From assembly GCA_015067975.1 (NCBI GenBank), contig SVLK01000005.1, positions 33,357 through 97,356 on the forward strand: a stretch of 64,000 nt of DNA. The letters run 5' to 3'. The DNA is from Oscillospiraceae bacterium (GTDB taxonomy: Bacteria; Bacillota; Clostridia; Oscillospirales; Oscillospiraceae). Below, piece by piece: positions 58,410 to 60,699 of this stretch. The position numbers and the translations under genes are program-made. The first letter of the stretch is position 1, and every line of letters begins with the position of its first letter. Below the pieces are notes generated by a model. The model made no database searches. It saw only the letters and a program-made list of their open reading frames with translations, and was not told the origin of the DNA.

Positions 58410-58437
58410 AAAAGGAGCGCCGTAAGGCGCTCCTTTT
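58410..58437. terminator. Bidirectional terminator
   Basis: AAAAGGAGCGCCGTAAGGCGCTCCTTTT. Confidence 0.8.
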
Positions 58438-58452
58438 GTGCTGGACATGTAC

Positions 58453-58686
58453 TTACTCTGCGGATTTTGCGCTTGTATCACAGTCGATGATGACTTTTTG
58501 GCATGCGGCACAGCGGTAGGCATAGACTGTGCGGGAGTTGTCGGCAGCGCCGTTGGACAAAGGTACGCTGTCCCGCCCGAAAACGGATAAGGCAGCTACC
58601 AACTGGCGGCGCGGTGTCCATGTCAGACCATCGCGGCACTGAATGTAGCCGAGCATCATTTGCTTTTGACAGTAGGGACAGTTCAT
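58453..58686 (-). CDS. Small zinc-ribbon protein
   Basis: MNCPYCQKQM...YAYRCAACQKVIIDC; 77 aa, paired CxxC. Confidence 0.75.
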   Translation of the reverse strand: MNCPYCQKQMMLGYIQCRDGLTWTPRRQLVAALSVFGRDSVPLSNGAADNSRTVYAYRCAACQKVIIDCDTSAKSAE

Positions 58687-58702: not shown

Positions 58703-60142
58703 TCACGATACTTTTTCTATGGTAAATATCATGGCGCACTGGGGCGTCTCTTCCTCCTGCGGCCATAGGCAATCCATGGAATCAATTTCGTAATAACCAG
58801 AATGCTCCAGCTGCCAGGAGATGCGCACGCCGTGAATGGTGTGCGAGGCGGGAGTAAAGGGATCATCGGCCATCGACTGCACCACGGCGTCGATCTCTTT
58901 GGTAGACAGGGGAGTGGGGTCAAAGGCCTGCACATAGGCATATACTGCCAGCAGCCGCCGGTTGGTGAATAGGGGAAGCATGCTGTCCTGATCTCCCTCT
59001 ACTGACAGAGAGAAACTGAGCCCGGTCATGAGCCCGTCCTCTTCTGTGTAAACGAAGTCGGGGGGATCAATGTCGTGCATGTGGATGACCACCCCTCCGT
59101 CGGGGCGGGGGTAATCTGTCCAGCGACCGTTTTCGTCCAGCCAGCATTCAAACTCGCGAATCTTTGCTTGCCGGTTGTAGTTTTCGGCAAACTGCGCAAT
59201 CGTCAGATCTCCTTGGTGAACAGGGCGGGAGATGAAAAGCCCGCAGAGCAGAATCAGCGCAAATTGGGCAATGATTCCGCCCACCACAGCTGCAATGCGC
59301 CAGTTTTTCTCATCCTGCAGCACCAGCTCGCTGTCCCATTCCCATGCCATTGTCTTGCCTTCAATGCAGTCGTAGTAGCGCTGATAGCCGCGAAAGATCT
59401 CTACAATAGGGATGAAGAAACCCGCGCCGGACCAAAGGGCCTGAAAGGTGCGGTAAATACCCTCGCTGTAGTCAAGCTTCTGACCGGTGTTGTTGGTAAC
59501 GCGTAATCCCAGCAGCCACTTGCCGGGGGTGGTGCCCCAGGTGCAGAGAAAAAGGGGTTCAAACAGAAGCATCATCAGCACAGATATAAAGAAGGTCAGA
59601 TCGAACCATGCGCCGCCTTGCTCGGTGGCGGGACTTTTTTGCAGCAGCAGAAGCCCCAGTATGATCCACACGGAGCCATAGAGCATCAGATCAAAGCGGC
59701 GGGCAAAGAAACGGCGCCACGGAGAACGCACACGGGGGACGGTATCCTTTTCCGGTACGCTGGCCGGTGCGCCGGCCGGTGTTTGCATGGCATCCAGATA
59801 GTGACGGGCATCCAGCGTTTCGTACCGTGCGCCGTCGCGGCGGATGTCGCGGCAAACCTGCTGCGAACATTGCAGTGCCTGTTCCTGCTGCTCCAGTGTG
59901 CGCAGATGTTCCTGCAAAGCGAGGTCCAGTTCCTTTTCGCCCCGCTGCAGTGCGCGGATCTCCTCCAGCGGCAGTTCCAGCGAGCGCAGCAGACGGATGC
60001 GCAGCAGCTGCTGCAGATCCTCCTCGCTGTAATCGCGGTAATTGTTGTCATGGCGCTGAGGCGAGATCAAACCCTCCCGTTCGTAAAAACGGATATTGCT
60101 GCGGTTCATTCCCGAGCGATCTTCCAGTTCTTTGATGGTCAT
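58703..60142 (-). CDS. MerR-type HTH fused to RDD membrane domain and C-terminal extracytoplasmic region
   Basis: MTIKELEDRSGMNRSNIRFYEREGLISPQRHDNNYRDYSEEDL (MerR); RSPWRRFFARRFDLMLYG...TWGTTPGKWLLGLRVTNNTGQKLDYSEGIYRTFQALW (RDD); NWRIAAVVGGIIAQFALILLCGLFI TM. Confidence 0.85.
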   Translation of the reverse strand: MTIKELEDRSGMNRSNIRFYEREGLISPQRHDNNYRDYSEEDLQQLLRIRLLRSLELPLEEIRALQRGEKELDLALQEHLRTLEQQEQALQCSQQVCRDIRRDGARYETLDARHYLDAMQTPAGAPASVPEKDTVPRVRSPWRRFFARRFDLMLYGSVWIILGLLLLQKSPATEQGGAWFDLTFFISVLMMLLFEPLFLCTWGTTPGKWLLGLRVTNNTGQKLDYSEGIYRTFQALWSGAGFFIPIVEIFRGYQRYYDCIEGKTMAWEWDSELVLQDEKNWRIAAVVGGIIAQFALILLCGLFISRPVHQGDLTIAQFAENYNRQAKIREFECWLDENGRWTDYPRPDGGVVIHMHDIDPPDFVYTEEDGLMTGLSFSLSVEGDQDSMLPLFTNRRLLAVYAYVQAFDPTPLSTKEIDAVVQSMADDPFTPASHTIHGVRISWQLEHSGYYEIDSMDCLWPQEEETPQCAMIFTIEKVS

Positions 60143-60255
60143 GGGTCGTTTCCCCCTTTCTTGAGGCCATGATAAGCTGTGCAGTCAGTGCACAGTCAAG
60201 TACTTTTTTCCTATTTTACAATATTTGCTTTTGCTGCGCAACAAAAAGCGAAACA

Positions 60256-60278
60256 GCGCACCGCTAACTGCGGTGCGC
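60256..60278 (-). terminator. Terminator-like hairpin
   Basis: GCGCACCGCTAACTGCGGTGCGC, followed on the minus strand by a weak T-rich tract. Confidence 0.5.
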
Positions 60279-60288
60279 CGTAGAAAGG

Positions 60289-60699
60289 TCAGTCAATATC
60301 CACGCTGATGTTGTCGGTGCCGTGAAGCTCAAACTCGCTGAGATAGGTGCCCATGCGCTCCATCACCTCGTCGTAGTTCTCCGGCGTGATGGGGGGATCA
60401 TCCATATCACGCAGCGCCATCTCCTGCGCCAGGATCTCGAAGAACGTCGTGTCCTCATAGGCCATGATAGCCTCGTGGATGCCGCCCTCGGCGAAGGCGC
60501 GGGAGGGAATCAGTTCTCCCTCATACAGTTCAGTCAGCCCCGCCATGCCGTGCGTCAGGCAATGGGAGAAGATGAGACTTTCCACCTCATCATACTGGCG
60601 AATGCGGTCATCGCCGCGGGTGGAATTTAAAATCCAATTACCGATATATACCAGATCCAACAGACGCCGGAACTGCTTTTCGCTTAATTTGATTTCCAT
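60289..60699 (-). CDS. Hypothetical protein (136 aa)
   Basis: Intact ORF MEIKLSEKQFRRLLDLVYIGNWILNSTRGDD... with upstream SD-like GGAGGTGA; no family recognised. Confidence 0.7.
   Translation of the reverse strand: MEIKLSEKQFRRLLDLVYIGNWILNSTRGDDRIRQYDEVESLIFSHCLTHGMAGLTELYEGELIPSRAFAEGGIHEAIMAYEDTTFFEILAQEMALRDMDDPPITPENYDEVMERMGTYLSEFELHGTDNISVDID

Follow-up and report, generated by a model that had tools for sequence, protein, structure and literature searches.

MerR regulators are textbook soluble switches. Could such a regulator act while anchored in the membrane? The question is raised by an open reading frame at positions 58703-60142, minus strand, of the window, by which we mean the whole 64,000-nucleotide stretch of DNA, from a gut-dwelling Oscillospiraceae bacterium, analysed here. 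A preliminary description, made from the sequence alone, saw in this frame a MerR helix-turn-helix, an RDD membrane domain and an external tail, and proposed a membrane-tethered one-component regulator. The domains, the predicted topology and a promoter conserved at 36/36 genes support that proposal. We think it likely that the locus encodes a membrane-tethered, autoregulated MerR one-component regulator with a tiny regulon, forming a small autogenous envelope-response circuit.

Domain organisation and predicted topology

The reading frame is uninterrupted. It starts with ATG and encodes 479 amino acids and a stop codon, with 0 internal stops. Pfam identifies a MerR winged-helix DNA-binding domain (MerR_1) at residues 1-67 (59942-60142, minus strand), with an E value of 1.4e-19 and 70.4 bits against a cut-off of 21.6. 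An RDD membrane domain (PF06271) follows at residues 139-247 (59402-59728, minus strand; E 1.2e-15, 58.5 bits, gathering cut-off 24.1). Hence, both domains named in the preliminary description clear curated cut-offs in one frame, and the RDD similarity holds in an HMM search. Foldseek matched the MerR head to CadR and PbrR, the CadR match having an E value of 7e-5 over about 110-146 columns. None of the metal-sensing MerR equivalogs (CadR/PbrR, CueR, MerR, ZntR) was reached; the best, CadR-PbrR, scored 49 bits against a cut-off of 151. The RDD signature residues, R144 at the start and D151 in the middle of the first transmembrane (TM) helix, are present in 36/36 aligned MerR-RDD proteins.

We modelled the window protein as a single chain with AlphaFold2, using 21 sequences as input. 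The model has a mean pLDDT of 86, a MerR fold at the N-terminal end and an alpha/beta domain at the C-terminal end. Between them lie a coiled-coil helix assigned to dimerisation (residues 72-102; 59837-59929, minus strand), TM helices at 141-167 and 176-202, RDD helices at 225-239 and 245-260, and a last TM helix at 281-304 (59231-59302, minus strand). Cys97 (59852-59854) falls inside the coiled coil. The linker between coiled coil and membrane (residues 124-134) has a pLDDT below 50 and is flexible. Thus, Pfam and AlphaFold, both suggested for this frame beforehand, recover the MerR domain, the RDD domain and the membrane segments. The coiled coil and the additional TM helix beyond the RDD domain, both anticipated, are present too.

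Topology was assessed from hydropathy and positive-inside counts in 36 sequences. Lysine and arginine counts are high on the predicted inner side, with means of 4.1 ahead of TM1 and of 3.7 and 3.8 in the two inner loops, which follow TM2 and precede the last TM helix. They are low on the outer side, averaging 1.1 in the first outer loop and 1.3 past the last TM helix. The RDD helices at 225-260 have near-neutral hydropathy, too low for membrane crossing. This charge distribution and weak hydropathy fit a topology with three predicted TM helices, the N-terminus inside and the tail outside. Were the 225-260 RDD helix a membrane-spanning one, the tail would instead lie in the cytoplasm. The C-terminal domain (residues 305-479; 58706-59230, minus strand) is therefore predicted to be extracytoplasmic, as first proposed, with a length of about 175 rather than about 165 residues. 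HMM matches, hydropathy, positive-inside counts and the model all place the DNA-binding domain and the TM helices on one chain.

The fusion recurs across two families

A search for further MerR-RDD architectures, as the preliminary description had advised, found 35 additional genes. The resulting 36, the window's included, occur in Oscillospiraceae and Lachnospiraceae, and the homologues are about 29-58% identical to the window protein. Among 199 relatives, long homologues were found in approximately 20 genomes from at least 15 genera. A scan of GTDB contigs returned approximately 20 more MerR-RDD genes, again in Oscillospiraceae and Lachnospiraceae. An Angelakisella massiliensis isolate (L068) has its copy on a 3-Mb contig and another MerR-RDD gene lies on a 2.3-Mb contig. 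Because the same fusion recurs in 35 other genes, a frameshift or assembly join between the two parts, raised at the outset as a way the reading could fail, does not explain the frame. Relatives from many genera keep both the layout and the control site before their own gene. Hence, we regard the fusion as a real design. In a tree of the HTH-coil region, which has few columns, a single branch with support of 83 separates the MerR-RDD proteins from the other sequences. This grouping is consistent with the fusion having arisen once.

A conserved promoter with a predicted operator

A 19-20 bp spacer containing a palindrome is the hallmark of MerR promoters (PMC8113463, PMC11049809, PMC1526738). 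A promoter of this kind, sought near the locus on the advice of the preliminary description, lies at 60169-60199 on the minus strand, 26 bp upstream of the start codon. Its -35 element TTGACT (60194-60199) and -10 element TATCAT (60169-60174) are separated by a 19-bp spacer. The predicted operator of the window protein is a perfect dyad, CTGTGCA-CTGAC-TGCACAG (60177-60195, minus strand), with 7-bp arms (CTGTGCA-N5-TGCACAG).

The element TTGACTGTnAA-N5-TTnA, followed by a -10 element at 19-bp spacing, was present upstream of 36/36 MerR-RDD genes examined; in one case (L073) it lies 233 bp upstream. It was found in 0/41 coding regions, upstream of 0/3 RDD-tail proteins without the MerR part (L071, L084, L085) and in 5/11,700 shuffled upstream regions (0.04%). 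The exact operator pattern had 33 matches in the 199 genomes and the reversed control pattern had 0. Approximately half of the 33 are upstream of MerR-RDD genes, and others are upstream of related MerR-TM genes.

We also compared the recognition helix with the operator. Residue 14 and operator base 7 pair as arginine with G in 39 cases and as another residue with T in 47, with 4 exceptions. The tree accounts for these pairings by approximately 7 changes, with only 2 well-supported independent pairs. Hence, we do not claim independent covariation. The pairing of Ser15 with operator G9 is only suggestive (p 0.005, uncorrected).

Gene neighbourhood and candidate targets

A zinc-ribbon gene had been noted downstream in the same orientation. 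It encodes a 77-residue DUF6487 protein (58453-58686, minus strand; Pfam E 9e-17), starts 17 bp past the MerR-RDD stop codon and is kept in 2/3 close homologues of the same genus (L003, L004). Terminator-like hairpins occur on the minus strand at 58410-58437, 3' of the zinc-ribbon gene, and at 60253-60281, between an upstream 136-residue ORF (60289-60699) and the MerR-type promoter. The MerR-RDD and zinc-ribbon genes are likely to form an operon bounded by the two hairpins, the zinc-ribbon gene being its probable second member. Since the 60253-60281 hairpin intervenes, the upstream ORF is probably outside this operon. When downstream context was compared across homologues, no neighbouring gene was conserved past the genus. 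Because neighbours differ from genus to genus, context gives no clue to function, and we dropped this line of evidence.

The window's genome, which is 84% complete, contains two sites matching the operator pattern. One precedes the MerR-RDD gene itself. The other, with identical GCA arms, is at G000:C7:36227-36257. The gene behind it (G000:C7:36281-36730; L145:4282-4731) encodes an orphan protein of 150 residues with one N-terminal TM helix. This protein has no Pfam match, and the search for relatives in the 199 genomes gave one marginal match. A single further MerR protein was found in the genome; it is TipA-like, lacks TM helices and has a different promoter. G088 has two MerR-RDD paralogues, and the operator variant of one of them, with GAAC arms, also precedes a gene for a 335-residue secreted protein. 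In most genomes the self site stands alone. Judged from the operator sequences, the predicted regulon comprises the regulator itself and no more than one or two proteins that are exported or membrane-bound.

Two further sets of sites came to light. At G139:C33:25354-27853, genes for a 261-residue MerR-TM protein (L159) and a secreted protein of at least 482 residues (L151) lie approximately 2.5 kb apart and have a common operator, TTGACTGTAAAG...TTTATAG. These are likely a regulator-target pair of another architecture. Separately, the MerR-type promoter TTGACTGTAYAGTTACTRTA precedes genes for similar multi-TM membrane proteins, which we take to be YitT-like, at G083:C1:114495 and G198:C34:25183 (L152, L158). 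Their genomes are without MerR-RDD, and the promoters probably belong to a separate MerR regulon.

The C-terminal domain

Taken alone, the tail has a pLDDT of 91.7. No significant Pfam match was obtained for any of 20 members. Foldseek searches of PDB folds gave nothing confident; the best E value was 0.12, at a probability of 0.11, and the highest probability was 0.35. We judged similarity to the WalK sensor domain (E 0.55) to be chance, as we did similarity to Cyt proteins or TlpQ (probability up to 0.35). This domain may represent a new sensor fold.

Among the 199 relatives, the tail is confined to MerR-RDD genes and a single shortened remnant, in G110. Beyond these relatives it also occurs with RDD alone, in proteins lacking MerR (L071, L084, L085). 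The tail is found either with MerR-RDD or with RDD alone and hence, judged by its distribution, is an RDD-linked module. We infer that it may act as the sensor.

The remnant and two of the MerR-free proteins have features of their own. In the shortened gene (L153; G110:C35:93730-94156), the operator and the start of the HTH run straight into the start of the exported domain. The coil and RDD are missing, and the gene looks like a decaying copy. The RDD-tail protein at L084:2875-4614 extends approximately 200 residues further at its C-terminus, in what may be a second exported domain, and its gene adjoins that of another small membrane protein. At L085:514-2582, the RDD-tail gene is followed, in the same direction, by genes for a 144-residue single-TM protein and a multi-TM protein. 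This arrangement is a possible split version of the MerR-RDD system.

Sister proteins share the coiled coil and Cys97

The nearest other MerR relatives (L022-L031, L086-L143) are nearly all approximately 216 residues long and have two C-terminal TM helices. They occur in Clostridia and some Treponema. Like the MerR-RDD proteins, they have a coiled coil with Cys97 and their own promoter with a 19-bp spacer. Unlike them, they have no RDD or exported domain, and their promoters are of the type TTGAC-nTTCC..GGAAGG, with a TTGAC-nTTCC operator rather than TTGAC-TGTnAA. Cys97 sits at the end of the coiled coil that faces the membrane and is present in 34/34 MerR-RDD and 51/54 two-TM sister proteins. 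Its presence in both groups suggests that membrane-anchored MerR proteins form a broad class, built on a common DNA-binding and coil unit.

A wider reading can be given slightly better than even chances. In it, an undescribed, large class in Clostridia, of which the MerR-RDD proteins would be one branch, would combine a DNA-reading and coil module, with its invariant cysteine, and swappable membrane modules. These would be RDD together with the new exported fold in some proteins and a pair of TM helices in others. Each protein would twist its own 19-bp-spacer promoter from the membrane upon an envelope signal.

A model for signalling and its alternatives

In the model that we prefer, two chains would dimerise via the coiled coil beneath the membrane and the dimer would occupy the dyad in the promoter spacer. 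A change outside or in the membrane would be sensed by the C-terminal domain, the RDD bundle or both. The coiled coil would shift as a result, and the over-long spacer would then be distorted by the DNA heads, allowing RNA polymerase to start. The main target would be the protein's own operon, encoding the regulator and the zinc-ribbon protein. An additional target in the window's genome would be the orphan membrane-anchored protein on contig C7. Cys97 could hold the dimer or serve as a thiol or metal switch.

The tail may instead serve only to cap the structure or to dock a partner, with sensing left to the membrane part. The RDD bundle or Cys97 would then read membrane state, an ion gradient or thiol/metal status. 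We consider this improbable, though it is the strongest of the alternatives. It accords with both sub-families having an invariant Cys97 close to the membrane and with the tail being the least conserved part of the MerR-RDD protein. Furthermore, the two-TM sisters have no exported domain and still keep the autoregulatory promoter type; hence, the tail is dispensable for the basic design. However, intact MerR-RDD proteins keep the tail and its fold is well predicted. The tail also accompanies RDD in the three MerR-free proteins, as a sensor-membrane module would.

The RDD domain could be a transporter rather than a sensor. For one RDD protein, from Halobacillus andaensis, Na+(Li+,K+)/H+ antiporter activity has been reported, with D154 indispensable for transport (PMC5996927). 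With this precedent, and with R144 and D151 invariant, the protein might be a bifunctional transporter-regulator in which the transport state of an ion/H+ antiporter controls the fused MerR domain. However, only three TM helices are predicted. Moreover, D258, which by motif may correspond to D154 and sits past the Pfam-matched RDD stretch, is found in only 6/36 aligned proteins, the window protein among them. Since a counterpart of D154 is apparently lost in 30/36, an antiporter role is less likely, and we rate the bifunctional reading as quite unlikely.

Regulated proteolysis, in which the membrane part would retain the MerR domain until a protease frees a soluble regulator, seems very unlikely. 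The flexible linker at residues 124-134 would suit such a release, but it shows no conserved cleavage motif, its length and sequence vary among homologues, and no conserved protease gene adjoins the homologues. Finally, although the window's genome assembly is fragmented and incomplete, an artefact, whether from a frameshift, a chimeric contig or a chance similarity, is refuted by the MerR-RDD homologues, whose identical domain order, including on megabase contigs, and conserved operator leave it a negligible chance.

If our preferred model of a membrane-embedded MerR regulator is true, promoter DNA can be untwisted by a protein seated in the membrane, and external signals can reach DNA without a kinase in common gut bacteria. 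Since the operator is short and autoregulatory and there is usually only one, a single reporter could serve to find the signal.

Comparison with known systems

Our literature search, which covered few subscription papers, returned no MerR-RDD fusion and no instance of the phrase "membrane-bound MerR". Transmembrane transcription regulators were surveyed by Demey et al. in 2023 (PMC10269533), and the main text of that survey does not mention MerR. The MerR-RDD design is thus apparently undescribed. Both of its Pfam domains will already appear in automatic annotation.

The window protein resembles the MerR family (CadR, PbrR, CueR, BmrR, TipA) in its winged helix, coiled-coil dimer helix and dyad in a 19-bp spacer. 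TipA is autoregulated, as proposed here for MerR-RDD. In the MerR proteins known so far, which are soluble, the effector part is a small metal site or ligand domain, whereas in the window protein it is a membrane bundle and a predicted exported domain. Its likeness to the RDD family (PF06271) lies in the HMM match above cut-off and in R144 and D151. To this it adds a DNA-binding domain, an extra TM helix and the exported domain, and the candidate for the second conserved RDD aspartate is mostly lost among MerR-RDD proteins. Among transmembrane transcription regulators, ToxR, CadC and BcrR provide a parallel in layout; they too carry a DNA-binding domain and TM helices on one chain and act from the membrane without a kinase. 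Their DNA-binding domains are of types other than MerR. Unlike them, a MerR protein would need to distort promoter DNA while membrane-bound. We file the MerR-RDD design as a MerR-type member of the known transmembrane one-component regulators.
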